Shown here piece after piece: positions 16,929 to 53,448 of a stretch of 64,000 nt of DNA. A model generated the notes under the pieces. It was given only the letters and a program-made list of their open reading frames with translations, ran no database searches and was not told the DNA's origin. The stretch's first letter is position 1, and each line of letters starts with the position of its first letter. The DNA lies in NCBI GenBank assembly GCA_026874595.1, contig CM049320.1, forward strand, positions 5,769,464 through 5,833,463, read 5' to 3'. Origin of the DNA: Sipunculus nudus (Eukaryota; Annelida; Sipuncula; Golfingiida; Sipunculidae). The position numbers and the translations under genes are program-made.

Positions 16929-16980
<52 letters not shown>

Positions 16981-17315
16981 GATTGTTCATTTATGTAAAG
17001 CCTTTGGTCATAAGTATGTTTATAATTCCTACAACTTCATAAGATATATATCTTGAAGTAAGGACACAGTTACAATTTGATTATAATCAATTTTTATCAG
17101 CTGATCGGCCAGTGGGTCAACTGGCGTTATTACCAGACCTTCAAACCTGCTGAATATGACTTTATCATCACCGTCTACAGAAACGGAGGCAACCTCTATT
17201 ACAAAGAGTCGTACACGTGAGTATATAATGATGTTTATTATATGGGAAAGTATGAGGACAGGTAATCAAAATCGTCAATCATAAAGTCAAGGAATTGTAA
17301 TATGAATAATACAGC

Positions 17316-17350
<35 letters not shown>

Positions 17351-24727: not shown

Positions 24728-25510
24728 CCATATATGAAAGGTCATGACCCGAATTTTAATATACAGCATTCCATAACCGTTGTCTATGTATATGCATAAT
24801 ATGAAAGAAACCTGTCCATTAGCTTTGACTTATAATGCTCATAGTACTGTCAAGTAGCAAGGATGGGGTATTGAAAACGCGAAAACAAGAAAAGGACAAA
24901 AGGTGGCGCCACCTGTCTTCTGCAGAAGACAAAGCCATTCAAGATCTTCAGTCAATATGATTTTTAGACCAATCCATGCATCCCTTGTTGAGATATTAAT
25001 GATTTAAGGTGATTTTCACCATATATGGCATTATTCAAGGTCAAGGCCACTCCCATATGAAAGGTCATGACCACAATTTAAATATACATCTTTCCATAAC
25101 CCATGTCTATGTATATGTATAATATGAGAGAAATATGTCTTATACTTTTTGACCTATAATCCTCACAGTACTGTTAAGTGGCAATGATGGGGGTATTAAA
25201 CGGCACAAAAACCAGAAAAGGATAACAGGTCGCGCCACCAGGTTCCGGTACATGACAACATTATCCAAGACCTTAGGTCAACTTGATTTTGGATCAATCC
25301 ATGCAAGATTTCTTGAGATATTCTAGAATTTGTGTGATTTTCCCTCAAAATGGACGTCTTCAAGGCCAAGGTCACTTTCCTAGTGTAGGTCATGACCCAA
25401 TTTTAAATAGACTTCGTCCTCTCAGCCATATCTGTGGACATGTCTAGTTTGGTAAAGATCCGTAAAATATTTTTTTGAGTTATGGCGTCCAAACGAAATC
25501 TCTGCGGCGG
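24728..25510. repeat. Tandem repeat, unit about 324 bp, about 2.4 copies
   Basis: The word GGTCATGACC starts at 24740, 25063 and 25388. Between these points the units align (CCATAACC..TGTCTATGTATATG.ATAATATGA, then TACTGT.AAGT.GCAA.GATGG, then a GGCGCCACC/CGCGCCACC block). The third unit is partial and ends near TGGCGTCCAAACGAAATC. No coding capacity was seen. The arrangement resembles interspersed repeat ends common in mollusc genomes; the family was not identified. Confidence 0.65.
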
Positions 25511-25869: not shown

Positions 25870-27130
25870 CAGATGTACAGAGCACGAATTGGCCTGTATG
25901 GACCAGGGCCGAGCATGTCGAGCACCCATGTTGCTGTTGTCAGGCACGCCAGTCAGGGCTTCTATAGAAACAGTCCTGTTTATCGCCATGGCCCTCATGT
26001 GTAGTGGTGATGTTGAGACAAACCAAGGCCCTCCTCCAACTTAACCAAAGACACCTGGTACAGAATCACAACCCAGAACATTCCGACCAACCCAGGCTAG
26101 GCTAAAAATGTTAGAAACTGGTTACCTGGGTTTGGTGTCAGACATTGACGTACATAAGATGAGTGATGCCGGAACCCGACATGTCAGAGCCAATAAAGGT
26201 TATGCCAGCAGTGCTCCTGCTAGAACATGTACAGCTCAGTAGCGGACACAGAGTAAGCTTGATGATATTTGTAGACAACGCAACAAAACAAATTACAAAC
26301 CTGGGGTCTGAAATAGACCAGTTGAAACAAAAAAAAAAGAGATTAAAGTGGAATGTGAGTAAACAAGAGGAACATTTTATTGTATTCAGGAAGAGGATGG
26401 TAAAGAATCCTGGGAACGATGCGAAACAAAAGTTAGAAATGTATCAATTATAAATTTAATCTCCCATCAGACGAAGAGCATGTTTCCATTGCACGGGCAT
26501 ATCGGCAACCCTGGCATGAGATGAGAACGGCAAGCCGAGCCCTATCTTTGTCCGCTTTGAGCGCTTCAAGGTTAAGGAAGATGTCCTCCAGAACACAATG
26601 CAAATATGTAAAGAGTGGGCATAACAGTATATATTAAAAACCACTACAAGAGGCTGAGAAGAAAGGTTACATTATATATATTGAAGTGTTAATGTTTATC
26701 ATGCATGGATCTAAATTTAGATTTACTTAAGATGTTCTGTTGGTTGCAGTTTATATTGCACAAGAATTTTCAGCATGGATCTTAACTGATATTTACCATG
26801 GATGTTCTGTTGGTTGCAGTGTACATTCCACCAGAATCTTCAGGTGTATATTCTTTTCTTGAGGAAGGAAGATGATAACATCTACAGACTAGGGAATATT
26901 CTTTGTGGAGTCATTGATAAACTAAGGATAAAATGAAATAATAATATTGGGTGACCTTAGGGCAAGAATAGGTTATTTGCAAGATGTCTTAATCGATGAT
27001 GATGGTTAGGATATTTACAGTAATGTTCGGTCGATGAATGTTACATGTCATGGGGAAAGAAAACACAAGATCGAATAGTTAATACGTTTGGTTAATCAGG
27101 AATTGTGTCTAGCTTTAAATCTATGTATCT
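25870..27130 (+). mobile_element. LINE 5' region: ORF1 with 2A-like motif, then endonuclease
   Basis: MYRARIGLYGPGPS (from about 25874) starts an ORF1 leader. After a frame slip it reads ETVLFIAMALMCSGDVETNQ and then GPPPT. SGDVETNQGP matches the 2A ribosome-skipping consensus D-x-E-x-N-P-G-P except that the first Pro is Gln. Then follow a coiled-coil stretch (ITNLGSEIDQLKQKKKRL, about 26300) and an ORF1 core-like RFERFKVKEDVLQN (about 26545-26600). An AP-endonuclease piece follows: VYIPPESSGVY (about 26820), then IIILGDLRARIGYLQDVL (about 26942-26995). Homology ends near 27130 and no RT follows. Many stops. The corresponding RT of a related copy is at 58655-61140 (-). A local 70-bp duplication (GATGTTCTGTTGGTTGCAGT at 26731 and 26801) lies between ORF1 and the endonuclease. 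Confidence 0.7.
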
Positions 27131-27559
27131 TAAAAAATAGTAGATTTGTGAAATAAATGGGGAATTTACATTCTGTACTTCGATTGTTAAGAATGCTATT
27201 TGTTATATTATTGCAGATTTTAAAAGCTCTTTTAAAAATTTGTGTGAAAATAACCATAGAGTGCAAGAGAAGATCAGGTGTCATTCTAATAATAAAAATG
27301 TGGCGCATAATGAAAAATCTCCGAAGGAATACTGATATAAACGTGACTCAACAAACCAATTTGGTACACATATCTGACAAAAGTATTTTGAGGTAGAACA
27401 CACTTCGAAAATACCTGACATAACCGAATCAATTATTTTAAAGCTGAGACATATTGACAATCACAAGATTCTGTGTTTAATAGAGAAAATGAACTCTTTT
27501 GAAATAAAAAAAAATGTGATAAATGAAATGATACCTAGAAAGGAACCAGCAAAATTGAT
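27131..27559. other. Anonymous sequence between LINE fragment and inverted-repeat arm
   Basis: AT-rich with no recognised domain. The short frames at 27157-27396 (+) and 27461-27649 (-) lack any signature. Homology to the lipocalin blocks starts at about 27560. Confidence 0.4.
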
Positions 27560-27901
27560 ACATGACATTGCATCAATAGCTTTTGATTCATGAAATATCC
27601 AAGGACGCAGAATTATGAAAAACGGAAATACAAGATAACCACAACACAATAAATATTATGCATTAAAAATTTTTTGTGAAATAAACGTGTTCTTATTATT
27701 GATTTTATGTAAAATTATTGTAATCCAAAGTGATTATTAATGACAACATTGGTTCAATTATTGTCTTCTTTAAAGTGTTTATTTAAATCATATTATTTGG
27801 GCGACTAAACAAAAATTTATATGTGGTATGTCTGCTTTTTCGATGTTCTCTCTACACGTTTGCAGATGGGAGGGTTTGTTTCCACTTCTCTACCTTCACG
27901 T

Positions 27902-29390
27902 CTATGCGAGGCAATCTGAAACAAGAAATCTATACTTTAGCATAATGGACATTCTGCATAATAGGTTACATAATCCTTGGTAGGAGGCAATAGTGACTAT
28001 GGAGGCATGAAAGATTTCAAACTAGCATGTCGTTGTTTTAAGAAAAGTGAGACCAGTTCCTTCCGTCCGTATGTTATATATATTCGAACTTAATGATAAA
28101 ATATATGTATTCTAAAAGAACACATAGTTTAATCAATAAATGCTAACAGGATAATTAGGTTTGCAGTTGTAATCTTGATTAATGCTAATGGCACTTTAGC
28201 ACAAAAGATACGAAGTGCGTGTAAAGGTAAGAATAACTGTGATACCTACCCTCTCCGATATTTTCGGCATACGTCTGCCGATCAGCACAAGCATCACCAA
28301 TGTACTCCGACTCAATGTCATCCAGGTCAACATTATCCCGTTCCCCGGCCTTATACGCGATACTAACAGCATAATCCGTACATTCACCGTTTGACTCGGT
28401 GAAACACTTGAAGACCACAACGTACTCATCCGTCACTTTCAGGAAGCGAATTTGGACAGCTGAAAGTAAAGTTAAAATATTTCAATACCGTTGTTTCTGG
28501 ATTCCCCGTTTAGTCTATATTTTCTTAATACTTCACCTATCGACTTTGATATAATTTGTTTGCTATTAACAATTTTGGTTTGGTCAAAGGTTTTTCACAG
28601 ATTTTCAAATCAGGATACAGGAAAGTTAATATGATTCATTTATTACCACCAAATCAAATTTCTCGATTTAGTTTTTGCAAAACGCAAGGAACTCAGCTTT
28701 TCAAAAAGCTGTACCTGTCACAAATTTTATCCCTACTATTTTGTATGTTTACACATGATTTAGAACGTAAGAATTCTCATCTGGTGTTCTTAGTATTCAT
28801 TTAATCGGTGTTGACTTTGGCTTTGCAGTTACAGGCAACAACATTTATTTCACGGTATTTCACTATAAATTATAGATGTTCTCTCTTATCGCTTTCATCA
28901 TTATAATTATTATAGGATATATCAAAATTCATCAAAGTAATTTATGAAATGGTACTCCTCTGTTTTGGTTTCCCTTTAAAACAATTAACAAAATATAATC
29001 AGTCCTTGGTTCAAATATTTTTAGCCGGTTTTACTGATCAACTCCTAAACGAAAACTCACTACTAATCATTATAAATTATTAAACAGTATTGCTGATTTT
29101 AAGCTCCCGGCATACATCATCTAGTAAAATAAGTTGAACATGTATCTCACATTTTTTTATTGTCACATTATGCTTATATTTCCTACAGGAATGTATTATT
29201 CTGCAGTCTAATAATGACGATTTAATATATAATGCGCACTTGCCCTCGCCCACAAGGTATTTTCCTTCATCATTGCCCGGTGCTAACAAGTTAGGTAAAC
29301 CTAAAACGCATGGGGTGTCACCGGTATTTCTGAAAGCAAACGTTTCCACGTGTCATTCTCAGTGTAAACTTTAGGCCATACACACACATC

Positions 29391-29449
<59 letters not shown>

Positions 29450-31408
29450 ATGTATACATATATATTAACTGTATTATTCATATTATTACAAACCCCTGAA
29501 GGTTCCATTTAATAAAGAGTTTTTAGAAAGCTGCACAAAATAATGTAAAATTACCCAATCAGTTATCTTGCTATGAATTATATGTGGTTCAGCTGTAATG
29601 AATGTGTAAATGCTGAGACATTGGATACCTCATCTAAGAGGAGACTTCATGATTACAATTTGGATAACCTTTCCTTATACTATCCTAGATAATAAACATC
29701 ATTATATACTCACGTGTATGACTCTTTGTAATAGAGGTTGCCTCCGTTTCTATAGACTGTGATGATAAAGTCATAATTAGCAGATGTGAAGGTCTGGTAA
29801 TAACGCCACCTGACCCACTGGCCGATCAGCTGATAAATTTGATTATAAGCAAAATTGTAATTTTGTCCGTAGTTCATGATATATATCTTATGAAGTTGGG
29901 AAAATTATAAACATACTTCTGATCAACAAAAAGGGAACAATTTATTTTATTTATAAAATCTTTTAAAATCTTTAAAATTTTTAAGCCTTAATATCAAATG
30001 TGTTTATGATTTTTTTTCTCGAATTCAAACGAAACTTCCGAAATTATTTAACACATGTATAACGGTTTTTTTCTATTATATTTGAATGATCTTTATTATT
30101 TAATTCCTGCTGCGTGTAAGAAAAATTCTTACAAACCTTGTCTTCTTCAAAATCTTCATCCAGGGGAACATTATTTGTGACACAAGTGCCAGCTGCGGAT
30201 GGAAGAGACTATATCAGCTGAGTACAATAGGCAGATGATTGAATACAACAATGCTTGCCAATCAGCTCGCATCAAGATACCTGGTTATGAAATATTTCTT
30301 CATGTATTGCAAATTTATATAATTATGCAAATGTTTTAAAGTTTATTGCTGGCTATATATAAATGTATCGCACTTTTAAAAATTCAAAATCTGGATCTAA
30401 ACAACCGACCGGACCTGATTTGGAAAATAAATGTTTATCAACGCCATATTTAATTGAAGTAATTAAGGCATCTCAAGTTCATCTTTTGGGACTGAAATAA
30501 CACATAAAAAGGACGCACAGGTGGTTATACTTCTACATTCCCAAATATGCAATTGAACACATAATATTGGTCACATGACATTGATCCAGGCGTTAACGAG
30601 AATACCTCAAATCATAGGTAAAACAAAGCTGGCAAAAGAAACTTTTGCAGAACATACTATCCATATAGTCGTTTACATCTTTATGACCCAAATGATAAAA
30701 GGCCAAGAAGCTCTATTTTCACAGATAGGTTGGGGAATAGTATGCAGTGGCGTCAATAACTTATACATTGACACTTTACAAGCCTGTTAAGTCATTATCT
30801 TATAACGTCGCCTGTACTTCCTCACCATATGCTTGGGCATCTTCTAGAAAAACAGAAGCGATTCATTTAGTAGTCAAACACTAAATTAACAGTTTCAGAA
30901 GGATATTTTATAAGTGATCTACTGACGCACTACACATATGATCCTACTCAGCCCCCACTGAAGGTTATTCAGGTCTGAGGGAATTCATCGGTGTTATGGC
31001 CAATGTTATATGGTTGATTACACTCCCAGGACCTGCCGGTAGACAACGGATCTGGTTGAGACCACAATAAATAAGATGTCATGACAGAAGAGCTACCGCC
31101 CTTTTACGTAGCCATGAACCGAAATGGAACTCTGTGGATCTAAATACTTAGCTTAAGAATAAGAAAAAAATGGAGGCGGTTGCGTGAACTAAAACTTTTA
31201 AAAAGTCAATCGGAAAATTAGATTATTTAAACAGTTGCCAAAGAAATATAACTCCTCTTTCTTTTTTTTCTGATTATTTTAACCCAACGTTATACATTTG
31301 ATAAATTACTCTCAATCTCACAGAAATTGAAAAGTTACCTGAGGTAGGGCGGTTGATGTAGCCTTAGAGAACCACGGCCCACCAAAGCACTTTTCTTCCT
31401 CCAGTCAT
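27902..31408 (-). pseudogene. Lipocalin copy B, broken in the signal peptide
   Basis: Exons on the minus strand: 31408-31339, 30192-30137, 29829-29714, 29329-29244, 28459-28250 and 27915-27902, identical in length to copy A. Exons 2-6 are fully open and keep the LIGQW, VTDEYVVVFKCF and terminal DCLA signatures. In exon 1, codon 15 is TAA (31366-31364) where A and C have TTA (Leu), and codon 10 is Trp where they have Leu. No other ATG lies in exon 1. The exon-4 donor is GC (GG/GCAAGT) instead of GT, a tolerated minor class. The promoter has CATAAAAG in place of TATAAAAG. The coding body is barely decayed, so loss is recent, or the stop is a sequencing or assembly error or a polymorphism. Confidence 0.75.
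29394..29445. repeat. (TA)n in lipocalin B intron 3
   Basis: An AT array of about 50 bp at the site homologous to 17318-17347 in copy A. Confidence 0.9.
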
Positions 31409-31429
31409 GATGAGCAATGTCGTGGTTGA

Positions 31430-31545
31430 GAATTAACTCTGAAGCTAGTCCGCTACGCAAACTGAGCAGATCCGACTACCTGCTATCGGGCAGTACTTTT
31501 ATGGACCAGTCGATCACATCATGTGAGGAAGGCGTGGTCTAATCA
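31430..31545 (-). promoter_or_regulatory. Altered core promoter of lipocalin copy B
   Basis: Aligned with the promoters of A and C, the TATA box reads CATAAAAG on the minus strand (31503-31496). The CRE-like half-site is ATGATGTG rather than ATGACGTG. Both changes fall in the two best-conserved boxes. Confidence 0.55.
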
Positions 31546-31972
31546 AAATATAAGGAATGAGTGACAGGTGGCTGTAAAGACAGGTGAAAGGTCAACGTGA
31601 CGTCAACAATTCTTAACGTTGATAATTTAACATTGTTCATAGTGTATATAAATTTATATATACATCTAAATTACTCAATTTATATGGGCTAATGCACCCA
31701 TAATTGAATCTTAGCTGACCCAGAATGATAAAACATTATTATCAAGGATTATCTTTCCAAATCAATAGTTATAGTTTTGACATCTCAGTTTGTGAATATC
31801 ATTTTTATATGGCAATGATAAATTATTTGTAACAGATAAATCCACGGGAACAAACAGCTGCTTAAACACATTTCTGTTGTATCAAAATCAGTCTGCAAAT
31901 GTATACGGTCGTTTTAACACCCCCCCCCTAATTTCTTACGTACATTCAGAACATGTTGTAAGCTATTCATGT

Positions 31973-31975
<3 letters not shown>

Positions 31976-32023
<48 letters not shown>

Positions 32024-32037
32024 ATATATATATATAC
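31976..32037. repeat. (TA)n microsatellite upstream of lipocalin B
   Basis: An AT array with a TGTATG interruption. The predicted YIYIYI peptide over it is an artefact. Confidence 0.9.
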
Positions 32038-32254
32038 ATTTATATTTTGTCCGCGGAAATGTTATATTCATAAATTTGATTATCAAACTCGATATTCGAG
32101 GTACAAATACAAATTGCTTTTAATAACTGATATAAATTTCGAACTTTTGTTAAATTTACCAATATGAAGAAATTTGCCATTCACAAAAACAATTTTCAGG
32201 TTAATCCAGCAAAAATTAAAAAGTTTAATCTATAGAGTTACATGATACCCAGCT

Positions 32255-32510
32255 TTCGTGATCAAATGACGTTAACATTTATAAATTCTTGTAGCTACAG
32301 CACCGGCCTTTTGTCTCCATTCACGTTTATATATCATTAAATCACTTTTAAACAAGGTGAACGAGCCAGGACATTCAGGTAGCTGTTGAAATTACGAGAG
32401 TTTAAATCATACAACAAAAAGGCGAAGCATTTCGGCTTATGCCCGCATGTCGCTGTCAATACCGCAAATGAAACCAAAATGTTACATTTCAGTCAATCAT
32501 GTCAGTGCTT
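32255..32510 (-). promoter_or_regulatory. Conserved upstream element, copy B
   Basis: Reverse complement of the element at 13960-14215 and 38765-39020, about 750 bp upstream of the altered TATA box. Confidence 0.4.
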
Positions 32511-34470
32511 AGTGCTCTACGAAATGGAAATATGTCTTTTATTTCACCGAGTTAAGCATTAGGGCAGTTGCACTTAAAAAGCCAGCTGATGGCATTCTTC
32601 TAAAAAAAATGGGTCGTTTTAAATAGTTATGTTATGATAAAATTTCCATCAGCTTAGACATTGTTACATACATTTTGTCTTTTAATGAACAAGAACAATG
32701 AGATCTAGAACAATGTGATGTAACAAGAACACCAAGGCTCATTCATCTTAACACCTCACACTAGTGCTTGTTTTCTTTCAAAATCATTATTACCTGTTAT
32801 AAAAACATATGGAGCATATTTCTCACAAACACAATCTGCCTGCTATGCACACGCAACACGTAAGCTGAAAGTTGCAGCAGTAGTATCATGTTATATGTTT
32901 CAGAAATCTGAATATTAAAGCAAATTGTAATAAACTTCATAAACCGTGTTCATATCTAGGTTTCCTTTTTGTACTGGACTATAAAATAAATATAATTCGT
33001 TCAATGTTTTGTTAATGCTTAGAGATTATTTCTCTTATTAATCCAGCAACTTTGGTTTACACAAGCTGAATGAGGCTTTGGCACAATTCACAACAGATAA
33101 GGTATGTGTTAAGTAAATGTAACGCTGATGGGAAAATCTAAATATTTTTCGACTGACCTCTTACATTTCTGCATAAAAGGCATAATTTTTGAGTATTCGT
33201 TTGAAAATATTTGTTAATCCAAAAGTTGTGGTTTATATTTAAAAAAAATAAGTATTGAATGTCAAGAAAATTCAATTATTTCAAATATGATATCGTAAAC
33301 ACAGTTCTTTTGATAGATAGTTCATTGACAGGGGGTTACAATATCAAACGAAAAAAAAGTCATGCACAAATAATATATTGCATAAAATATATATAAAGCC
33401 TTGGGTGGTCATTGTCAAATTATGAAACGTTTTCTTCTTGAAATTTGATCACACTTCAACCATCTTTACCGGGCCTCATCATTGTATTGAGCTTAAAACT
33501 GTCACTTTTAATACCGGTGTTTAGGATTCTGACTGCTTCATGCGGTAGGCCTGACCATTCATATGTCATAGATTTCTAGTTTGTTGCTATTGGATTTCAT
33601 GTCGGGTGGCACATCTCTGTGCTTATTATTACACGACGGCGCTTTAGAGTGAATCAGATTACCTTCATACACACCTTTTTATTAAGCATGAAATATAGTA
33701 TCAGTCACCTGACTTAGTGTCAATCCTGTATTGATGAATTCAACAGAGGAGAGTCATAATGGTTAGCTTTACTAGCATCGGAAACGAAACAGACAACGGA
33801 TGCTTTTAAACCCGAAGTTATATCTTAAACTATTGCACATGTGATAAAAGAGACACTTGGGTACCAGCCCTCTGTTAGGAGACAACTAGTAATCGCGACA
33901 GTGGCTCCACTAAAAGTTGATGATTTAGGGAAGAGCTGACACACCAAAACGGGACAAAAGTTGTGTAAATAATAATAACCGACCGCAACTTTTTAAATAT
34001 AAGAAATATAACACAATGAATATGTTTGAATTTACAAAAAAAATCTATATGAACACAGGATGGAGGTAGCTGATTCAGTTTTAGCCCAAGGGGGCGTCAT
34101 TTAAAGGCGTAAAGGAAAAAAAGGAAAAAGTAATAAATATACAGTGTTTTGTTTGATTCTGATCTTTTGTAAGAGAAAATTCTCATTTTACCTACTTATA
34201 ATGTCCTACATTGTAACTACCGGCCTCATTTGATGATCTTTTTTTCTTCTTGAAATTGTTTTGTTTTGGCAGCAGTTAAACAATTCAAGACGGTAGAACG
34301 AATGTATTTAGACAAAAATATTTAATTACATAATCCAAAGTTTAATGTTCTTATAGTGGGGATGACGTTTCAAAACATGTGCACGGTGAACTCGCTAACT
34401 CCGGTGAACACAGATCATAGGTATCAATGAGCATGGTGGGTAATGATGGTGACGCTGGACTTCTTTTCAG

Positions 34471-34628
34471 ACCACCTTTGCGATAAGACCCCTTGTGGAA
34501 CGCATTATTACAAGTATCCATCTTTCGAACCAAGGTGTGATTGGATAATTATACCTGGAGAGGTGTATATTCAAGATGAATATTCTGATTTTCTTATTCC
34601 TACTCCTGTACCTGGATTCCGAAGCTAA
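34471..34628 (+). CDS. Cysteine-containing terminal exon, unknown gene
   Basis: A strong acceptor (GACTTCTTTTCAG) precedes a phase-1 exon that reads HLCDKTPCGTHYYKYPSFEP, then RCDWIIIPGEVYIQDEYSDF and LIPTPVPGFRS, ending at TAA 34626-34628. Three cysteines, aromatic-rich and acidic, with no AT-driven low complexity. A clearly related but broken exon lies at 52411-52565, so this is a duplicated coding unit. The upstream exon was not found: the ATG at 34443 in the same frame lies before the acceptor and is probably intronic. Family unknown. A secreted small protein is a guess from cysteines and phase. Confidence 0.45.
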
Positions 34629-34649
34629 TTGTTGTATGATTTTCAACTT

Positions 34650-34730
34650 ATGATTAAAAAAATATGAGCCATGAAATATAACTTTGTTTTAAAAAAAAGC
34701 AATATTTCATGGCTCATATATTTTAATCAT
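34650..34730. terminator. Long hairpin just downstream of the terminal exon (not a bacterial terminator)
   Basis: Arms 34650-34679 and 34702-34730 are near-perfect reverse complements (core ATATGAGCCATGAAATAT / ATATTTCATGGCTCATAT), with a loop of about 22 nt. The hairpin starts 21 nt after the stop codon, so it would lie in the 3' UTR. The homologous 52.6-kb locus has only the right arm. The type label is used only because it is a 3'-end structure; no function is claimed. Confidence 0.6.
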
Positions 34731-35012
34731 GAGATATTCTCAAACCACTGATTGAAAAAAGTTTTAGGAAGGTTCAGCTTCATCGTTTTTGCTTCATTCT
34801 TAGGAAAAACAACCGCGTTTACATAGTTTTGTAGTTTGAACATATGATATGTTAAAATGTTTGGTCTAAAGGAAGCATACAAAGAGCCCAGAGGTGTCTG
34901 ATTTATGTTAACATTTCCAGGTATATGAGCAATTATTAGAATAACTGTGTCTCTACATCATGTGTTTCAAGATCAATGAGATTTTTTTTTCATTTTTGTT
35001 CATATAATTTAT

Positions 35013-35016
<4 letters not shown>

Positions 35017-35069
<53 letters not shown>
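35017..35069. repeat. (TA)n microsatellite
   Basis: An AT array of about 50 bp. The homologous site at about 52935-52950 is short and is followed by an inserted RT fragment. Confidence 0.9.
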
Positions 35070-35072
<3 letters not shown>

Positions 35073-35344
35073 GAAAAACATCGTCCTTTCCTTCTGAGCT
35101 GACACCTTTTGAAACAATGTCAATATCAAACTTTGACCCAGTAGCGTATTATCTCTATCTCTAGCCTCCGATGCCTATGTAATTTTTAACCATTATATAT
35201 TATCGCTATATATTCCTATGTCGGCTTTCATCACCAAGTCTTTGAACTCGGACGAAACCACATGTCCAATTACCTGTGTGGAATGCTGAATGTTTTCCTG
35301 TGGCAAGGCATTGTGCTTTAACTGATAAAATGATTAATATGACA

Positions 35345-35580
35345 TGATTAACTGAAAAGTAACATGATTGTTTCATTTGCGCCGTTAACGGCACCATGCG
35401 GGCAACAGCTCCGACCATTGGCTTTTTTTTCTATGATTTACTCTCTCGATATATATTCAGTTACCGCACCGCGCTGACTCGATCTCCGTGTATACAACTG
35501 ATAAAAGTATACATCTACCTAAACAAAAACCGAGACTACATGCAATATGAACATTATTTGGCCACGAAACGGGGATATTA
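35345..35580 (+). repeat. Conserved upstream element in the duplicated locus, short copy
   Basis: Shares AACATGATTGTTTCATTTGC, GGCACCATGCGGGCAACAGC and the distal GGCCACGAAACGGGGATATT block with the element upstream of the lipocalin copies, but no lipocalin exon follows it. Confidence 0.5.
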
Positions 35581-37234
35581 TGTTACTATTAATCTTATGA
35601 ACATATTCGCACCATTAATCTTATAATCATTTGAGACTTTAAGGCAGGAGATGTTTCACGGTTTACTTGCAGGTGAAACATATCTCGGAAAAAATGGAAG
35701 CCCTTATCTCCACAAACATTTAAAAAAAAAATTGAAACATGCACTAATGTTTGTATACAAAGAAATTTTGCCAGGTTTGCTACTTTAAGAAGGCTGGAAG
35801 TCCACTTGAAACAATTTCGATTTAACCCCATTCATTTTTGCAAACTTATATTAAGAAAGAGCCAATTTTAAACTGGATTGACACACATGTAAAAAAATGA
35901 ACTATGTTGAAAATAATGAAATGAATCATAATAGTCAGTGAATAACAAAAGTTACCATTTAAAAAAAAGTAATCTATTTGAGGAATATTTAATCGTTTAA
36001 AAGGGTTACACATCTTATTTAAACACTCCTAGAAATACATATAGTATATTTCCCCACCTGCGATAAGTTTCTAAAAAGATCATATTTTTCAGTTATTTCC
36101 TAGAAAACTACATATGGTAGAAACAATGATGGTACAAGCTTTAACTAATGATTTAGTATTCATACGTATGATATAATAATATATTGTATCAACTTTATTT
36201 CATAAAGTTCAAATGCTTACGATTATTGTTTTATATTTATTTATTTTTTTTTATCTTTCACTGAGGCTAAAATTCATCATTGTCAATTTATGTTTTGCTG
36301 TCAAACATAAATTAAGCCTGCAAATGCTTAGGAGATTGTAGACAGTAGTAAAGTATAAATTTCAGTATGTGCAAACAAACTAAAATTCTTAACATAAATA
36401 TATAATAATGGTATTTACGACAAAAAAAACATATGATATATTCTCCAATTGGCATTTTAATATTTTTATTCAGATATTTCACCTGAATGTATTTGTTGAT
36501 GCGAATTCTCGAAATTAACAAAGTAGTGTAAATCTGTCACTTCACACACCAATCACTCACATGACGCAAAATGTACTTAGTGAGATATAGAAGCAAGCAT
36601 GAGGGTGTAAGTGCGCTATGCTGCATGTTGTCCGCTTAACAGCGCCGCTTTGGTAAATCAGCCCTGACAAAAGTCCGTTTCCTAAAATTTCAGTCATCTT
36701 GCATTGTATGATATTGATTTAACTCTGATGGTAACTGCTTTATATAATTAATAATTTCTAATTCATAGAATTATTTTATTTCAGTGAATAAAACTGTTAT
36801 ATCTTTTCAGTCTGATAAATATTAGTCTGAAATAAAACTATGTAATGTTACCGAGATTAGACGAATTTGGAGCGTTTAAATACCCTGCCTACAAATTAGA
36901 GTCTCAAGTGCCCCTTACAGTCCTTTTTAGAGTAGAACAGTCATCCAAATGATAATGTGATCATTATGTAACTTTTTAGATCATATTTGTAATTGTTTTA
37001 AGCAACATAAAGTATTTACCCATTTTCTTTTGAGCAAAAAAGAACCAGATAAGATGTAACTACACCATTTTGTTTTAGTAACCAACATATACACAGTTGC
37101 TTTGTGTTTTATATCACTCTTTGAAACATTAATGTGAAACCAATTTACGCAGTGATTTTTAGGGGATTATTGCAAGCGCTATTTCATGTGACAATATAAA
37201 TGACAATACACGCATTAAGGTACTCGATTACAGT

Positions 37235-37440
37235 ACGCCAGCTGAACCACTGGCCTATCAGCTAAGAAAAGTTGATTATAAATCAAATTGTGTCCGTAGT
37301 TCATGACAAATAACTTATGCAGTTGAACGAATTATATACATAATCCCATAATATTCCATTATATACATAATTTAACATAAAGGGAAAATATATGTCATAT
37401 ATAAAGTCTCAATCAATATTTAAGCCTGGATATCAATAGT
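37235..37440 (-). pseudogene. Relic of lipocalin exon 3 with intron 2
   Basis: On the minus strand, intron-2-like sequence (37440-37262, including TCATGAACTACGGACACAAT and a CTTAG acceptor) runs into CTGATAGGCCAGTGG and then TTCAGCTGGCG (37261-37235), encoding LIGQWFSWR, the lipocalin GxW motif. Homology then stops. It lies next to the right arm of the inverted repeat and marks an additional, mostly deleted copy. Confidence 0.7.
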
Positions 37441-38764
37441 TGAAAAAGGGCTAGTACACAAATGTCTCTTTTATCACATCTGCAATAGTTTAGAGCGATA
37501 ACTTTGGTTTATGTACATCCGTTGTCTGTTTGGTTTCCAATTCTAGTAAAGCTGAACATTATGACTCTGTTAAATTCATCAATTGACTTTAAATCAGATG
37601 ACTGGTACTATATTTCATGCTTAATAAAAGGTGTTTATGAAGATAATCTGATCGTTATGCATCCACAATTTTTTTAAACATCATTCACTTAAAAGAGCCG
37701 TGGTGTAAAAATAAGCACAGAGATGTGCCACTCCACATGAAAACCAATGACGCCCAGTAAAGATGGTTGAGGTGTGATCAAACTATAAGAAGGAAAAATT
37801 TCACAATTTTTCAATGACCACCCAAGGATCGGCTGCATTATATAAATTCTAGCCAATATAATATTTTTGTATGAATTTTTATTGTTTTATAGTGTAACGG
37901 CCCTGTAAAGGAAATATCTTATTTATCGACGATATCAATATTTTACAATACCATATTTAAAATAATTGAATTTTTTTTACATTCAATACTTATTTTTTAT
38001 AGTAAAAACCACAATTTTTTTTAATAACAAATATTTTTTTCAAATGATTACTCAAGGATTATGCCTTTTATACAAGCATACATCAACTTATGTCAATTTT
38101 AAAGGTCAGTGAAAAACTATCTGGATTTATTCATCAGCGTTACATTTACTTAGCACATACACTTATCTGTTGTGAATTGTGCCAAAACCTCATCAGCTTG
38201 TGTAAAGCCGAAGTTGCTGGAATAATAAGAGAAGTAATCTCTAAGCAATAACAAAACACTGAACGAATCATTTCTACAATTTATTTTATAGTCCAGTATA
38301 ATAAGGAAACCTCGATATTAACACGGTTTATGTAGTTTATTACAATTCGCTTTGATATTCTGATTTCTCAAACATATATCATGAAACCACTGCTGCAATA
38401 AAATGCGAAACATTCAGCTTACGTTTTGCGTGTGCATAGCAGGAAGGTTGCGTTTGTGAGAAATACACTCCGAATGTTTTTGTAACAGGTAATTTTGAAA
38501 GAAAACAAGCACTAGTGTGAGGTGTTAAGATGAATGAGCCTTGGTGTTCTTGTTTCATCACATTGTTCTAGATCTCATTGTTCTTGTTCATTAAAAGACA
38601 AAATGTATGTTAAAATGTCTAAGCTGGTGGAAATTTATTATAATATAACTATTTAAAACGACCCATTTTTTAGAAGAATACCATCTGCTGGCTTTTAAAG
38701 TGCAACTGTCCTGGTACTTTACTCGGTGAAATAAAAGACATATTTCCATTTCGTACAACACTAA

Positions 38765-39020
38765 GCACTGACATGATTCACTGAAATGTAACATGTTTGT
38801 TTCATTTGCGGTATTGACTGCAACATGCGGGCATAAGCCAAAAAGCTTCACCTTTTTGTTGTATGATTTAAACTCTCGTGATTTCAACAGCTACCTCAAT
38901 GTCCTGGCTCGTTAACCGTGTTTACAAGTGATTTAATAATATAAACATGAATGGAGGCAAAAGGCCGTTGCTGCAGCTTCAAGACTTTATGAATGTTAAC
39001 GTCATTTGATCACGAAAGCT
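38765..39020 (+). promoter_or_regulatory. Conserved upstream element, copy C
   Basis: Same element as at 13960-14215, ending AACGTCATTTGATCACGAAA about 680 bp upstream of the copy C TATA box. Confidence 0.4.
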
Positions 39021-39679
39021 GGGTATCATGTAACTCTATAGATTAATTATTTTATAATTTCTGCACGATTAACCTTAATAATTGTTTTTCTTGTGAACGG
39101 TTTTAATTTCTTCACATTGGTAAATTTAACAAAGCTTCGAATTTCATATCATTTATTAATAGCAATTTGTATTTGTTAATTAAATATCGGTTTTGAAACT
39201 CACATTTATTAATATCACATTTCGGCGGACAGAATTTATATATATGGTGCATGAATAACTTACAACATGTTCTGTAGGTACGTAAGAAATTGGGGCGGGG
39301 GAATGTTAAAACGACGATCCATCTGCAGAAAGAATTTGATACAACAAAAAATGTGCAGTTTTTTTGTTCCCGTGGATTTATCCATGTCAATTAATTCTTC
39401 ATTGTGATAAAAAAATTGATATTCACAAACTGGAATATCAAAATGATTACTTTTCATTTGGAAAAAAATCCTTGATATAAATGCTTTTTTTTCTGGATCA
39501 GCTAAGATTCAATTACAGGTGCATTTGCCCTTATAAATTGAGCAATTTAGATGTAATTATATACACTATGAACAATGTAAAATTATCAACGTTAAGAATT
39601 GTTGACGTCACATGGCCTTTCACCTGTCTTTACAGCCACCTGTCACTCATTCCTTATATTTGGATTAGACCACGCCTTC

Positions 39680-39750
39680 CTCATATGACGTGAACGACCG
39701 GTCTATAAAAGAACTTCCGGATAGCAGGTAGTTGGATCTGCTCAGTTTGT
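39680..39750 (+). promoter_or_regulatory. Core promoter of lipocalin copy C
   Basis: CTCATATGACGTG followed by TATAAAAG (39704-39711) and CTCAGTTTG, as in copy A. The CCAAT-like GATTGGT of copy A is GACCGGT here. Confidence 0.65.
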
Positions 39751-39798
39751 GTAAACCACTAGCTTCAGAGTTAATACTCAACCACGACATTGCTCATC

Positions 39799-42700
39799 AT
39801 GACTGGAGGAAGAAAAGTACTTTGGTTGGCCGTGGTTCTCTTAGGCTACATCAACCGCCCTACCTCAGGTAACTTTTGAATTTTTATGAAAGGGAAAGTA
39901 ATTATCAAATGTATACTGTTAGAATAGAATAATTAGAAATGAATCAGGAATTATGATTCTTTGGCAACCATTTTAATGATCTCATTTTCCGATTGACTTT
40001 TTAAAAGTTTTAGTTGAGGTAAATCCTCCATTTATTCTAAGTATTTGGATCCACAGACTTCCATTTCGGTTCATGGCAACACAAAAGGACGGTAGCTCTT
40101 CTCTCATGACATCCTATTTATTCTGGTCTCAACCAGACCGCTTGTCTAACGGCAGGTCCTAGGTGTGTAATCAACGATATAACATGGGCCATTACACTGA
40201 TGAATATCATCAGACCTGCATAACCTTCAGTGCAGCCTGAGTAGGATCATATGTGTACTGCACCAGTTGATCACGTATAAATTATCATTCTGAAACTGTT
40301 AATTTAGTGATTTGACCAATATAAGATATCGCAACTTTAATTTCTAGAAGATGTTGAAGCATATGTTGAGGAATTACAAGCGCAGTCAAAAGATAATAAC
40401 TTAAGAGGCCTGTAAAGTGTCAAAATTATAATTATTGGCATCATTACATACTATTCTCGTATCTGTCTGTGAAGATAGAGCTTCTTGCCCTCTTATTATA
40501 TTTGGTGTATAGATGTAAACGACAATATGGATAATATGTTCCTACATACTTTTCTATCGCCAGCTTTGTATCCCTTATGTTGAGATATACTAGTTGAATC
40601 TGGGATCAATTTATTAGCTCCTATGACCAATATAATGTTTTCTAGTTTATATTTAGGAATGTTGAAGTAAAACTATTTGTGTGTCCTTTTGAATGTAATT
40701 CCAGTCCCAAAAGGTAAGCTTGGATGCTTTTATTGTTTAAAAAGCCTGATGCTGTCCAATGTCATACGGGTCGCTAAACGGATTTCATGATAATTTCGTT
40801 AAGCACGCTTGCTAATAAGATGCTTCCCAGATCAACTCTGTTTTTTATGTAAACATTCCCCATACGAATTTCTTGAATCAGTAAAACATGTAAAAGTTTA
40901 AAACCTCATAGGAATCTGGCGCAGTTTGTTATACAGATCCAGATTTTAATTTTTAGAATTTGCGATACATTTATATGAAATGTCTGCATAATTATTTCAA
41001 TTTACCATACATGAAGAAATATTTCTTTACCAGCCAGGTATCTCTATGCAAGCTGGTGAGCAAGCATTGTTGTATTAAAATGTCTGATTATTGTATTCAA
41101 CTGATATCGTCTCTTCCACTCGCAGCTGGCACTTGTGTCACCAATAATGTTCCCCTGGATGAAGACTTTGATGAAGACAAGGTCTGCATGAAATTTTTCT
41201 ACACGCAACAACGATTAACATATAATGATAATTCAAATATACTTACACTGTTATACATTTGTTCCCGTTATTTCATGACCTTGGATATTTTGTGTTTAAA
41301 AAAAAAACGATTAATATTAATTTCTGAAGTTTGGTGTGTATTCAACAACAAAAAACTGAAAAAAAATTATTTCACCCATAGATATCCAGACTTTAAAATT
41401 GATTGAGACTTTATATATAACATATATTTTCCCTATATGTTCGATCAGAAATATTTATATAATTCTTCATACTGCTTAAGATATATATCATGAACTACGG
41501 ACACAGTTACAATTTTGCTTATAATCAACTTTTATAAGCTGATCGGCCAATGGGTCAGCTGGCGTTATTACCAGAACTTCAAACCTGCTGAATATGACTT
41601 TATCATCACAGTCAACAGAATCGGAGGCAACCTCTATTACAAAGAGTCGTACACGTGAGTATATTATGATGTTTATTATCTAGGATCATATGAGGAAAAG
41701 TAATCCAAATCGTCAATCATAAAGTTTCCTTTTATATGAGGTATGTCCAAGCATTTACACATTTATAGGAACTGCTTTTTTATCCACATTTAATTTATAG
41801 CTAATTTTTATATCTGATTTGATATTTTTCACATTATTTTGTGCAGCTTTCTAAATTAACATTATTGGTAGGAACGTTCAGGGAATTGTACAATGAATAA
41901 TACAGTATATATATATATATAAAGATATATATACATATTTGTGTGTGTTAGGGTGTTGGTTTGGATGTATATTTGTGAATGGTCTATAGTGTACACTGAG
42001 AATGACACATATGAAATCTTTTGCTTTCAGAAATAACGGTGACACTCCATGCGTTCTAGGTTTACCAAACTTGTTGGCACCGGGCAGTGATGAAGGAACA
42101 TACCTTGTGGGCGGGAGTAAGTGTGCATTATATATAAGATCGTCATTATTAGACTACAGAATTTATAGTCCTGTAAGAAATATAAACATAATGTGACAAT
42201 AAAAAAATGTGAGATACATGTTCAACTTATTATACTAGATGATGTATGCCGGGATCTAATATTCAGCAATACAGTTTTATAATTTATAATAATAAGTAGT
42301 GAGTTTTCGTTCAGGTGATCATCTAAAAATTTTTGAACCAAGTACTGATTATATTTTGTTATTTGTTTTTAAAGGTAAGCCAAAACATAGAAGTACTATG
42401 TCTTTTATTAATTGGATGAATTTTGTAATATCCTTTAATTACTATAATGATGAGAGCGATATGAGAGGACATTTATACTTAATACAGTGAAATAAATGTT
42501 GCCTATAACTGCAGAACCAAAGTCAACACCGATTAAATGAAGACTGAGAAGACGAGCTATATACGTGTAAACATACAAAAATATTAGCGGTTAAATTGTG
42601 ACATTAAATGTGATTGTGACATTGAACAAAATTACCAGCCTAATTTGTTATCACCAAATCATCAGCAATTGCAGATACAGTGTATTGAAAAGCTGAGTTC

Positions 42701-43473
42701 CTTGCGTTGAGCCAAAACTACATCAAGAAATTTGATTTGGTGGTAAATAATGAATCGTATGAACTTTCCTGTTTCCTGATTTTGAAAATTTGTGAAAAAA
42801 CAGACCGAGCAAAATTGTTTACAGCAAACATATAATATCAAAGTAGATAGGTGAAGTATTAAGGAGATATAGACTAAACGTGGAATCCAGAAACAGCGTT
42901 AATGATATGAATTAACTTTACTTTCAGCTGTCCAAATTCGCTTCCTGAAAGTGACCGATGAGTACTTTGTGGTCTTCCAGTGTTTCACCGAGTCAAACGG
43001 TGAATGCAAGGATTATGCTGCTAATATCGCGTATAAGGCCGGTTTACGGGATAATGTTGACTTGGATGACATTGAGTCGGAGTACATTGGTGATGCTTGT
43101 GCTGATCGGCAGACGTATGCCGAAAATATCGGAGAGGGTAAGTTCCACAGTTATTCTTACCTTTACACGCACTTCGTATCTTCTGTGCTTAAGTGCCATA
43201 AGCATTTATCAAGATTACAACTGCAAACCTAATTATCCGGTTAACATTATAGAATACATATATTTTATCATTAGTTCAAATAAATTTCACATACGGACGG
43301 AAGAAACTGGTCTCACTTTTCGTCAAACAACGGCGTATTGGTTTCAACTCTTACATTCCTCCATAACCACTTTTGCCTCCTACCAAGGATTATGTAACCT
43401 AATATAACGTATGTCCATTATGCTAAAGTATGGATTTCTTGTTTCAGATTGCCTTGCAATGACGTTAGGATAG
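39799..43473 (+). CDS. Secreted lipocalin, copy C (six exons)
   Basis: Exons 39799-39868, 41126-41181, 41539-41654, 42031-42116, 42928-43137 and 43448-43473 give 564 nt, 187 residues, without internal stops. The signal peptide is MTGGRKVLWLAVVLLGYI. Motifs: DFDEDKLIGQW (GxW), VTDEYFVVFQCF (TDY-like), then IAYKAGLRDNVDL. Differences from copy A include V-N-N for T-S-N after the first mature cysteine, QNFK for QTFK, VNRIGG for VYRNGG, and KDYA for TDYA with loss of no cysteine. The stop seen in A and B after DCLA is read through: GCA TAG has become GCA ATG, extending the C terminus by MTLG to a TAG at 43471. The exon-3 acceptor ends AAG rather than CAG, and the exon-2 donor is AAG/GTCTGC, both weak. 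If these junctions are used the gene is functional; transcript data would settle it. Confidence 0.8.
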
Positions 43474-44660
43474 CGACGTGGAAACAAACCCTCTCACCTG
43501 CAAACGTGTAGAGAGAGAAATTAGAAAAAGCAGACATACCACATATAAATTTTTGTTTAGTCACCAAAAAAATATGATCTAAATAAAAACTTAAGGAAGA
43601 CAATAATTGAACCAATGTTGTCATTAATAATAACTTTGGGTTACAAAAATTTTACATAAAATTAATTATAAGAATACTTATTTCACAAACATGTTATAAT
43701 GCATAATATTTCCTGTGTTGTGGTTAACTTGTATTTCCGTTTTTCAAAATTCTGCGTCATTGGATATTTTCATGAATAAAAAGGTATTGATGCAATATCA
43801 TGTTTTCATTATTTTATCAACCGGTGGTTCTTGAAAGTGAATGGCTAGATAAAAGGCATTCCTTAGACCTTCCAATAACAACAATACCAAGCAAGAAAAT
43901 AAATTTTAGCACTTATGTTACACCTTCACATTAAATACAAATCACAATGGGCAAAATGTCCAGGGTCCTGAAAAAAATATGCAGGTCCTAAAGATCACTC
44001 CAAGGTTTTCTTGAAAACAACCTTAGAGAACTCGGGAAAGCATCAGAGATTCACTAAACTATATTAATAATGGCTTTTGAATTATTTCCCTACCCGTGTG
44101 TGTAAATTTTAGAATTCGAAAGCCAGGCGAAGTACCATCATAAGTCCTAAGGTTACCGTTATCTTAACAATATAGATAACGTCAACAATACTCCAAAGAC
44201 CTATCATTCAATGAGATTTTCAAAATACCTTTACATAAGTTAACAGGCAAAGGCTATTATACTGTGGCTTATGAATTTGTCACTCTAATGCATATACATT
44301 AAGTCTAATGGGTGGCATATGTTGGGTAAGCAGTAATTAAATTTGGCCTAACATAAATACTTGGATAGAACTAAAAGTTTATCATGGCATGATAGGTTTT
44401 CTTATTCAGCAACTAAGGGACTTGAGATGACAGTGATATTTACCATAGACATATATATATATATATATATATATGATAACTCCTACTGTAACCAGGTTCC
44501 AGTTTAATAGATAGTTGTAATCCTAATGCTAATAGGTATCTATTACCTCTCGCCCGTTTCTTAGCATTGAAGATCATGATTATATCCTGAAAGAGCCGTC
44601 ACACAAATTACGTCGATCCCGCCACGTTTCCCTTCTGTGATATAAACATATTTGCCTATA

Positions 44661-46509: not shown

Positions 46510-47459
46510 CTATTCATATATATATTACAAAATGCAGAGAACAATCGTTTTCAAATAGCAGTGCTATTTAACTGATAAAGAATTACTATTTTATTGAAAA
46601 ACAGGTGGCAATATCAAAAGGAAAAATTTAAAACATGATATGATTTGGACGAGATTTACAATTATTTTGGGTTCAAAATTTAATATAATTTTGGAATTTT
46701 ATATTTCATCTGACAAATGTGGTCAGATTTAGTTTCCTTTATTGATGAATACCATTTCTTACATAAGTACTTGGGCATTCTTTACTTGATATACTCAGTA
46801 TTATGCATTTTTTCTTTATATTATAAGTATGTTAAAAATTAGCTTAAAATTTTTAATTAGGCATATTTGTAAAAATGCAATATCAAGTTCTTGTTCTGAA
46901 ACGGATAAAGGTAAGGCCCAGTTTGCAATAAATAAGCATACCATAGAAATGTAATATTCGATGTTTATCCATATAATTTTTCACATCTATTTTGTTAATT
47001 TTATGACAAACAAATAACGACTTTAATCAGTGTCACCTCTTGTCCCGCTAACAAAAATAAATATGCACACTTAAAAAAAAAATTAGACGCATTTCTTGGT
47101 TCGAAAGTTGTTCATTCTGAGACGCAGTTATTCCCATTCTATAATAACTTTCTTTACTGTAGCCAAATTAATCTGTAATATTACACATATTGCTCCATTT
47201 TACAATTATCTGACAAAAAAGACCTTAAACTCTTACGACTTTTTAGAGCAAATTCACAGCAAATCCAACAAAGCGGAAGACGCTTTTATCTTATTGACAT
47301 TTCTCCATTTCCATGTTTTCTGTTTTGTGCCTGAGAAATGTCATTCTCTACCACGTGAATTTATGTATTATATTATGCTTTTATTCGTTAAGGTTAAACA
47401 AACAGTGCAAAAGCTGTCACTGCAGTTTTCACTCCCCTGGCTTAATATCTAGAATTTGT
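46510..47459. other. Anonymous AT-rich interval
   Basis: No supported feature. A 118-codon plus frame (47096-47452) has no domain signature and AT-typical composition. Confidence 0.45.
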
Positions 47460-49450
47460 TATGGAAAACAGATCCCAGAACCACATCCAGATAAAGATCT
47501 CTTTACCTAGTGTAATTACTAATAAGCGAATGGCTCATCAGTTTAGAAAAAATCTAAATAATTGTATGGGATAAGTTTGTTTAAAAATAATATAAACAAT
47601 TATGCTGCTACTAATAATAATAAAATAATGATAACAATGATATCCTATTTTTGCACTTTGAATCATAAAGAAAAAGATCAATATTCAGATTGGCCTAAGC
47701 AAAAAACAGTGAATGTTTCATTACATGACAAGAAGCATTTAACCTTATTAATATATATCCACGAAACAATGTAACAGAATAAAAAATTATGTACACAAAG
47801 TTATTTAATATATTTAAGAAATATATAGATCCTGCTGATCAAGTATTTCTATGGAAGACCTCAATATTATGGTCAAGGTAAAATTAGATATAAAAAGTGA
47901 CACTGCAGACATTAGGAAAAGGGCAGTGGGAACTTTTTGCAGATAGGACACCATTTGTATAGATATTTTTAGCTTCAGGTCTACTAATCAGAAAAGCTGC
48001 AAATGGAGGATTAAAAATTAACCATTTGTAGTAAGATCAGTAAGAAGAAACATATAACCACAAAGCACGGGACTGTATTATTAGTTAAAAAAACAGATTG
48101 TATTCTGAACCCGAAGAAATATAAAAATGGCTAAAATATATTACAAAACAAATCAGCTACAGTAGAATTAAAGCAAATGTCCGAAAAAAAGTTGTCAATG
48201 CAAAAGCAATCTTATTTACCATTATATTAATTAGAAGTAAATAAAACATAGTAGAAGATAGGCAGAAAATAAAAAAAATGACCCTACTTATCAAAACGGA
48301 ATTCAGAAACAATTGATACCATAATCACAACAGACGATTATTATAATACTTTAAGAACATTATTTTCTAGGGATAACACCACAAGTAATGATGGGATACC
48401 TCTAGACTTTTAATGTTGGTGTTGTCATATTTTGGTTCTGCAGTTGTAGATTCGTTTAACACATTAATGCAAAAAAATCCTATCCGCATCACAAATGCAA
48501 GTAGTATTGATTGATAAGAAATAGGGTCATCAATGAAGAACTGTCAACCGATATCGCTATTACCAGAAACTCTCACTTATAATGAAAAATATTGTAAAAC
48601 GTATAATAAAAAAGAGTAGAAATTTATGTACAGTGAACGTATACAACAGTAAATATAAAATTTCTATTAAATATTCTCAATTTAATATGAGTAAATGATA
48701 TCCTCGGAATTTTATTAATTGCAGATATTGAAAGAGCTTTCAATTCTTTAGACCAGGATTTCATGTGTTGTTTTTTTCAATAAATACAATTATACTACAT
48801 CGTTACAAACGCTCTATAAAAGATGAAAATTTATCTTTAAATAGTGAGGTGACTTCTGGATATCTTAAAGTGGAATAAAGGGTCCGCCCAGGAGATCCAC
48901 TGTCATAATATTTATCCGTGATTGCGATCAAATAATGGCGGAAAATATAAGACTAATAAAGTAATCAAGGACTTACAAATTAATAACTTATTTAACTTGG
49001 TACAGTTCAAACAGCACAAGTTCTAAAGTAGGCAAAACAAGTTTTACATACAATACAGGAATTTGGTACCTACAATGGTTTAAAAATTAAGTGATGGTTA
49101 TGGATTGACCGGAATAGGAACTGTTTGCAAAAGCGATTTGGTTTTAAATGGCTGGTATAGACTATGAAAGAATGTACCTTCCTTATGATAAAAGCAACAC
49201 TATAGTTAAAAGTTGTTCATGAACACCAAACGCTTTTTTACAGAGAGCTATATTAAATAGATTTATCTTCATTTCAGTTAATAATAGAGAAAGAAGTAGA
49301 AGAGTCAGTTAAAATCCTGCAACTCAAATGCCTTATCTGAACAATGGCTTACCTTTAAGTATTTTAAGTTCATTTAATGAACTTTGGGCTTTTCCAGCAT
49401 ACAATGGTCTTCATGATGAATCTATGACGGATTTATATCATTGCTTATTT
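47460..49450 (+). mobile_element. Decayed L1/Tx1-like non-LTR retrotransposon, copy 2
   Basis: Direct homologue of 6850-9038 (ATCCCAGA.CCACATCCAGAT at the left; GGGTCCGCCCAGGAGATCCA at 48879 and 8680). RT motifs on the plus strand: IERAFNSLDQDF (about 48727-48765) and GYLKVE, stop, RVRPGDPLS (48855-48902). This copy continues beyond the point where copy 1 ends, with a C-terminal stretch around 49320-49450 (MPYLNNGLPLSILSSFNELW). Multiple stops; inactive. A block equal to 7440-7760 of copy 1 is missing here near 48030. Confidence 0.65.
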
Positions 49451-52080: not shown

Positions 52081-52410
52081 CTTCAACAGATGATTTAAGA
52101 GGAAAAAGTATTGAATATATTGTGATTGATTTGATGTTGACTTTTTTCAAACAAAAACCTTTTTTGCTCCATTTAGTGTCCAACGTTGTAATTACCGTCC
52201 TCATTTTATGATTTTTTGGTACTGGAAATAGACGGTAGAACGAAAGCATTAAGACGAAAATATTTAATTACATGATCCGGTGTTTAAGGTTCCTACAGTT
52301 CGGATGACGTTTCAAAACATGTGCACGGTGTACTCGCCAACTCCTATGAACACAGCTGTTAGGCATCAATGAGCATTTTAGGTGATGATGGTGGGGCCTG
52401 ACTTCCTCAG

Positions 52411-52565
52411 ACCACGTTCGCGATGAGACCCCTATTGGAATGCTTAACTACAAGTATGCATCTTCCCAACCAAGTCAAGATTGGATATTGATGCTTGGCG
52501 AGGAATATATTTAAGATGAATATTCTGATTTCCTTATTCCTACTCCTGTACCTTGATTCCCAATC
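52411..52565 (+). pseudogene. Broken copy of the cysteine-containing terminal exon
   Basis: Aligned codon for codon with 34471-34628: HVRDETPIGMLNYKYASSQP, then SQDWILMLGEEYI, then TAA at 52512-52514 where the other copy has CAA, then DEYSDFLIPTPVP. All three cysteines of the intact exon are lost. The acceptor (ACTTCCTCAG) is still recognisable. Confidence 0.65.
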
Positions 52566-53244
52566 CAATTATTATATCAGTTTAAAAAAATATATTTCAT
52601 GGCTCATATTATTTAAAATCATAAGATACATTTAAACATTTCCATTGAGATGAAACAAAGTTCTAGGAAGGTTAAGCTTCATCTTTCTTTTTTGCTTCAT
52701 TCGAAGAAAAAAACCGCGTTGACACAGTATTATTGTTTGAACACATGATATGTTAAAATCTTTGATCTACAGGAAAAGATATCCAATCATACAAAGGTCA
52801 AAGTGTTTCCTGATTTGTGTTAACATTTACGGGTATAAGAATCATTTATTAGAATGACTGTGGGTATCTCTACATTATGTGTGTCAATATCAATCAGATT
52901 TTTTTTTCATTTTTGTTTATATGCTTCATATAACTATATATATATAGTTTGGTGCTAATAATGGTGAACGCCAAGGGGGTGTATCTGTTTAATATTTTCA
53001 TTTACCTGATGATGACATCTTTCGAAACAATATCAAATATCTTTGCCCTAGTATATTGTATTATCTCTATCTCTAGCCTATGATGACTTGGTAATTTGTA
53101 AACCATTATATGTTATCGCTAAATATTCCTCTGTCGGCTTTCACCACCAAGTCTTGGAACTCAAACGAAACCATATGTGCAAATACCTGTGTGGGATGCT
53201 AAATGTGTACCTGTAGCAAGGCATTTGGCTTGAACTATGCGCAT

Positions 53245-53448
53245 GTTTTTATTAAATGTCAGACGGTATAAATAAGTATCACCTGATGGATATTCCTTTG
53301 TATCAAATTATATACGACCAGTATTTTGCGAGAAGAATATCAACACTTGACATTGAAAATGCTGTTTTCTCAACGACAATCAATGAGTGCATACGTGATA
53401 ATCAAGACATATATCCTATTCGTATCACTTTATCATCAGCCAATGACA
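53245..53448 (+). other. Insert with an open frame, absent from the 35.3-kb paralogue
   Basis: About 200 bp interrupts the duplicated locus just before the 250-bp upstream element. It is open from an ATG at 53256 (MSDGINKYHLMDIPLYQIIY, then ARRISTLDIENAVFS and CIRDNQDIYPIRITLSSAND). The peptide looks protein-like despite the AT-rich setting. Origin unknown. Confidence 0.35.

Follow-up and report, generated by a model that had tools for sequence, protein, structure and literature searches.

The locus described here raises the question of whether a large inverted repeat with a gene in each arm is a palindrome in its own right, or whether its arms are two members of a more widely duplicated gene family. 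A blastn self-comparison of the window (the whole stretch of 64,000 nucleotides that was analysed) placed one arm at 27560-33871 and its reverse complement at 37447-43803, separated by 3575 nt, and both the positions and the spacer of about 3.6 kb given in the first-pass annotation were thus borne out. The similarity is far beyond chance. The accompanying description of the pair as a near-palindrome did not survive direct alignment of the arms, in which 5073 of the 5991 columns that could be aligned are identical (84.7%) and a further 720 are gaps; there were 8 exact runs of 40 bp or more, and the longest exact match was 78 bp. Arms such as these are not nearly identical, as those of a long palindrome under arm-to-arm conversion would be.

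A third copy, which the annotation had also reported, was found on the plus strand at about 13.7-20.1 kb. This copy (A) comprises a gene block with 5' and 3' flank at 13671-20075, and it is 81.9% identical to the left arm (copy B, minus strand, 27560-33871) over 4928 aligned columns and 81.5% identical to the right arm (copy C, plus strand, 37447-43803) over 5032 columns. Because A and B likewise form an inverted pair, at 81.9% identity over those 4928 columns, the B-C pair is not special among the copies. Since A is almost as close to B and to C as these are to each other, B and C are simply two members, in opposite orientations, of a gene family represented at least three times in the window. 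The inverted arms, the modest spacer and a tract of about 0.9 kb of low B-C divergence (described below) would be in keeping with a true palindrome of the kind found on mammalian sex chromosomes, retained by selection and with ongoing gene conversion between its arms keeping them alike. With arms 15% different, interrupted by 720 gap columns and sharing no exact match above 78 bp, and with copy A nearly as close as the partner arm, we consider this very improbable, and palindromes of that kind are put at >99% identity in the part of PMC8981503 used here.

A single six-exon gene model accommodates all three copies and predicts a secreted protein of 183-187 amino acids. Exons were placed by eye from splice signals and cross-copy conservation and then checked; an automatic coding-periodicity search did not recover the set. 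The exon lengths of 70, 56, 116, 86, 210 and 14 nt are common to the three copies except that the last exon is 26 nt in C, and the intron phases derived from these lengths are 1, 0, 2, 1 and 1 throughout. In copy A, the exons lie on the plus strand at 15077-15146, 16726-16781, 17101-17216, 17441-17526, 18358-18567 and 18860-18873, with AG acceptors, GT donors, an open frame of 183 codons and a TATA-like element at 14982-14988. Those of copy C are at 39799-39868, 41126-41181, 41539-41654, 42031-42116, 42928-43137 and 43448-43473 (plus strand), with the TATA-like element at 39704-39710, and those of copy B at 31408-31339, 30192-30137, 29829-29714, 29329-29244, 28459-28250 and 27915-27902 (minus strand). 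The stop codon of C falls 4 codons later than in A and B, and the products are 183 residues for A and 187 for C. The N-terminus is signal-peptide-like, the products are 88-92% identical to that of A, and pairwise dN/dS was 0.39-0.50 across the three pairs. The reading frames of A and C are open, and by this evidence both still look able to code. With tblastn (matches >18 bits), no further exon besides those of A, B, C and the relic described below was matched in the window at better than E 0.62.

Copy B has departed from this model at several points. The TTA that A and C carry at codon 15, within the signal-peptide exon 1, is replaced in B by TAA; the splice donor after exon 4 is GC, not GT; and the TATA-like element, which lies 95 bp upstream of the ATG, has the sequence CATAAAA rather than TATAAAA (31503-31497, minus strand). 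Because of the stop in the signal-peptide exon together with the changed TATA-like element and the GC donor, B is probably a pseudogene, and a young one. Codon changes private to one copy were divided between amino-acid and silent changes as 14 (including the stop):7 in B, 7:4 in A and 4:7 in C, and the amino-acid excess in B was not significant (14:7 against 11:11, Fisher p 0.36); B may therefore be a recent pseudogene, or its stop at codon 15 may be a base or sequencing error. The annotation had seen a complete six-exon lipocalin in each arm. The six-exon model and the matching places of the exons stand, but two complete genes are ruled out for B by the stop at codon 15 of its exon model, beside the changed donor and TATA-like element, and the lipocalin name, which we take up below, is plausible without support from Pfam, PDB or profile comparison.

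The sequences around the genes extend the family beyond its exons. Most of the spacer (34119-37233, plus strand) is the 5' flank of copy B, homologous to 52097-57222 (plus strand) and in part to the upstream flank of A at 12169-10766 (minus strand); because it is colinear with the A 5' flank and with the sequence at 52-57 kb, the readings of the spacer as unique DNA or as one transposon were both rejected. The remainder includes a 0.2-kb relic of another gene copy at 37235-37445 (minus strand), which retains intron 2 together with roughly 35 nt from the start of exon 3 (LIGQWFSWR), matches C 41618-41368 and A 17127-16902 at 70-72%, and directly adjoins the C arm. A second copy of the 5'-flank sequence lies at 52097-58126 (plus strand), with blocks matching both the region upstream of A and the spacer. 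All five blocks between the A upstream flank (12135 down to 1191) and 52227-58126 kept the same order and relative orientation; among 10 Markov-1 control sequences the highest score was 40 bits. The spacer, the A upstream region and the 52-58 kb sequence are thus the same 5' flank, viewed from each gene. The 52-58 kb copy is oriented as expected for a minus-strand gene to its left, and no gene was found beside it. A short imperfect palindrome also occurs in the spacer at 34657-34724 (two 34-nt arms, 88% complementarity, no gap), and at 56219-56585 the second 5'-flank copy contains a 39-bp unit repeated in tandem about 9 times (84% matches).

The 3' flank of A recurs in reverse at 64000-62114 and 61096-60747, and the segment 60747-64000 (minus strand), homologous to the A 3' flank at 19297-21107 and 26891-27241, represents the 3' flank of a fourth unit (D). 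The partial block noted earlier at the right edge of the window is therefore real (62114-64000, minus strand, matching A 21107-19297); it contains 3' flank only, with no exon inside the window, and the gene of unit D, if present, would lie beyond. About 4.8 kb of extra sequence between the two parts of the A 3' flank holds a decayed LINE-type reverse transcriptase in the A-B interval at 22144-23626 (minus strand; PF00078, E 1.2e-22, with a weak zf-RVT match below cut-off). The similarity of C to A extends past the arm to about 44674, and the 3' flanks of B and C have nothing in common beyond 27544/43820. These flanks bear on the possibility that the arms are haplotypes (alleles) wrongly joined in assembly, a possibility favored by the fact that some invertebrates are very heterozygous. 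Noncoding divergence between the copies is about 0.17-0.22 substitutions per site, B-C similarity in the 3' flank stops at 27544/43820 whereas A-C similarity runs on to 20069/44668, and A is as distant from B and C as these are from each other. Because the arms have different flanks and A is about equally distant from both, we regard such a misjoin as extremely improbable.

Several other features were recorded in scans of the window. Six-frame Pfam comparison returned the reverse transcriptase from 22.0-26.9 kb and 0 matches from each of the segments 4.6-9.5, 44.7-49.2 and 49.2-54.1 kb; the three plus-strand frames of the copy C region gave 0 Pfam matches, and Rfam at its gathering threshold gave 0. 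The sole open reading frame of at least 150 amino acids in the window (5972-6589, minus strand, 205 amino acids, TTG start) falls in the 4.6-9.5 kb segment, no frame of which matched Pfam. A dispersed direct repeat pair, 6799-9040 and 47409-49279 (plus strand), is 71-76% identical and out of order with the gene units; it is probably a mobile element. A two-copy tandem repeat of a 325-bp unit (76% matches) occupies 24732-25409.

Divergence was compared among A, B and C. Noncoding K2P distances of the arms were 0.166 for B-C, 0.210 for A-C and 0.220 for A-B, from 5241 of 5439, 4217 of 4480 and 4262 of 4376 aligned noncoding columns, respectively, the locally unalignable ones having been dropped. 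The distances were uneven along the arms in every pair (p 1.8e-15 for B-C, 3.1e-5 for A-C and 1.7e-5 for A-B). In the shared 5' flank the A-B distance was 0.41-0.55, about twice that of the gene blocks, a figure from blast-chosen pieces in which alignment bias is possible. The 3' end was low in divergence in all three pairs (0.10-0.12), which could reflect constraint on the UTR. A candidate conversion tract lies at 32235-33147 of B (minus strand), matching C at about 38115-39036: from 33147 to 32235, B differs from C by 6-10% in each 150-column bin, whereas the neighbouring bins on both sides differ by 16-30%, and A differs from both B and C by 15-25% in the part of the tract that it covers.

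Private sites, at which one copy differs from the other two, were also unevenly distributed. Those of A were in excess in the 5' part of the gene and those of C in the middle, and the patterns varied along the genes (chi2 75.9, df 38, permutation p 0.0002) over 20 windows, which remained after the first of 21 was dropped because A hardly aligns in it; a three-zone split of these sites was chosen post hoc, the 20-window test was not. The longest concordant runs of A-B (p 0.19) and A-C (p 0.27) were within chance expectation. That of B-C was significant but fell mostly in sequence where A hardly aligns. Together, the significant mosaic and the low B-C tract identify segments whose relationship is unlike that of the rest of the gene, a pattern in which three copies cannot separate conversion, successive unequal crossovers and uneven constraint. 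The mosaic fits past gene conversion or unequal exchange, as judged from these alignments. Possibly, there was no conversion at all, and A arose from an earlier duplication and B and C from one later, with uneven divergence produced by uneven constraint alone; B and C are indeed closest overall, and every pair shows conservation of the exons and of the 3' end. In mid-gene, however, the private-site excess moves from A to C, and A and B are there as close as or closer than B and C; this is not what rate variation on one unchanging tree would predict by itself, and we think this account unlikely. As for exchange at present, frequent events between the arms would not be expected because of their 15-18% divergence, exact matches of 78 bp at most and the 3.6-kb spacer. 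The earlier view of an actively reshuffled gene-family cluster is therefore kept with regard to a rearranged cluster with a mosaic that fits past exchange, and is weakened with regard to the word "actively".

The identity of the protein is less secure than the anatomy of its genes. None of the A, B and C proteins matched Pfam at E up to 10 (0 of 3), nor did a partial protein without exons 1 and 6 match any Pfam family; a PDB profile search gave one unrelated match (E 0.64) and no lipocalin, and a PDB single-sequence search at E up to 10 gave 5 matches, of which 0 were lipocalins. By significant profile match, then, the protein was not placed among lipocalins. All three copies carry LIGQWV, a GxW-type motif, and the best hhalign alignment to a profile of the bacterial lipocalin Blc (built from 80 bacterial Blc-type lipocalins) fell on the lipocalin GxW region, pairing query 30-49 with Blc 29-48 and LIGQWV with YLGTWYE, at nearly the same distance from the N-terminus in both; the probability was 2.45%, and of 60 column shuffles 4 scored as high. 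By exon lengths, the phases of introns 2-5 are 0, 2, 1 and 1. In lipocalins the introns that interrupt the barrel-coding part have the conserved phases 0, 2, 1 and 1, a pattern for which our literature search found no published confirmation. The order strand-strand-helix and the final cysteine resemble, by eye, what we take to be the tail of apolipoprotein D. From the motif, the order of parts and the final cysteine, "lipocalin" is plausible, and carriage of a small hydrophobic ligand would be the corresponding function. That the protein belongs instead to some other small, secreted, cysteine-containing family is the less probable reading but one to be reckoned with: the empty Pfam and PDB searches and the shuffled-profile scores favor it, and the position of the best profile alignment and the likeness to apolipoprotein D judged by eye argue against it. 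Should it be a lipocalin that has diverged beyond the reach of current profiles, the locus would gain in importance, because its three copies, relic and flanks would define a family that searches would miss.

In summary, several diverged copies with shared flanks, some of them broken or truncated, occur in this window (A, B, C, the relic at 37235-37445 and flank-only units at 52-58 and 60.7-64 kb), as is expected of a tandem or inverted multigene cluster with birth and death of its members. The inverted pair is real but old and ordinary within that rearranged cluster. We consider it likely that this is a small gene-family cluster whose units were duplicated in both orientations and broken up, with gene blocks partly homogenised and B probably dead; the host is a eukaryote, probably an animal. 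The repeat unit would span about 20-26 kb and comprise a 5' flank, a gene whose six exons encode a secreted protein, probably of lipocalin type, and a 3' flank. We infer that it was duplicated several times in both orientations, and that deletions, truncations and the insertion of a LINE then broke up its copies. B and C would be two such units head to head, the spacer being the 5' flank of B itself, cut off at the start of the C block, where a relic of yet another copy marks the junction. Once duplicated, the gene blocks may have been made partly uniform again through gene conversion or subsequent crossing-over, most recently in the 5' part of B and C, with A and C remaining coding-capable in appearance and B probably dying. 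By this reconstruction, the locus is a readable case of a small secreted-protein gene family growing and decaying by inverted and direct duplication.

Among the literature matches listed, nothing on invertebrate or molluscan lipocalin inverted clusters was closer than the mouse Mup and teleost apolipoprotein D genes. In the sections of PMC2533699 and PMC2441477 that we cite, the Mup cluster resembles the present one in that its Class B lipocalin genes (PMC2533699) form inverted head-to-head pairs in which one partner is a pseudogene, truncated by a premature stop codon within its first coding exon, and in its repeated inverted-duplication units with transposable elements near the breakpoints. 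It differs in that Class B copies share >97% cDNA identity in a long regular array, and the inverted-duplication cassettes are about 98% alike in the portion of PMC2441477 used, whereas the copies here are 15-18% diverged, few, irregular and truncated, and their protein has no significant alignment to known lipocalins. Conversion is not a given even in Mup, since the passages concerned report no evidence of it for the older Class A genes (PMC2533699) and apparently little role for it (PMC3477143). The teleost apolipoprotein D clusters, as treated in the excerpt of PMC6325677, share lineage-specific tandem duplication and, in one species, an inverted member, but they are vertebrate, and no inverted pair with shared flanks is described in that excerpt. 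Mammalian X/Y palindromes likewise have gene-carrying inverted arms, but theirs are >99% identical via conversion, according to the part of PMC8981503 cited, against 84.7% here. By analogy with the Mup layout, it is conceivable, although we think it distinctly doubtful, that the present locus is an independent counterpart outside mammals, in which lipocalin genes are maintained as head-to-head gene/pseudogene pairs whose partners exchange sequence and the pseudogene is silenced in its signal-peptide exon.
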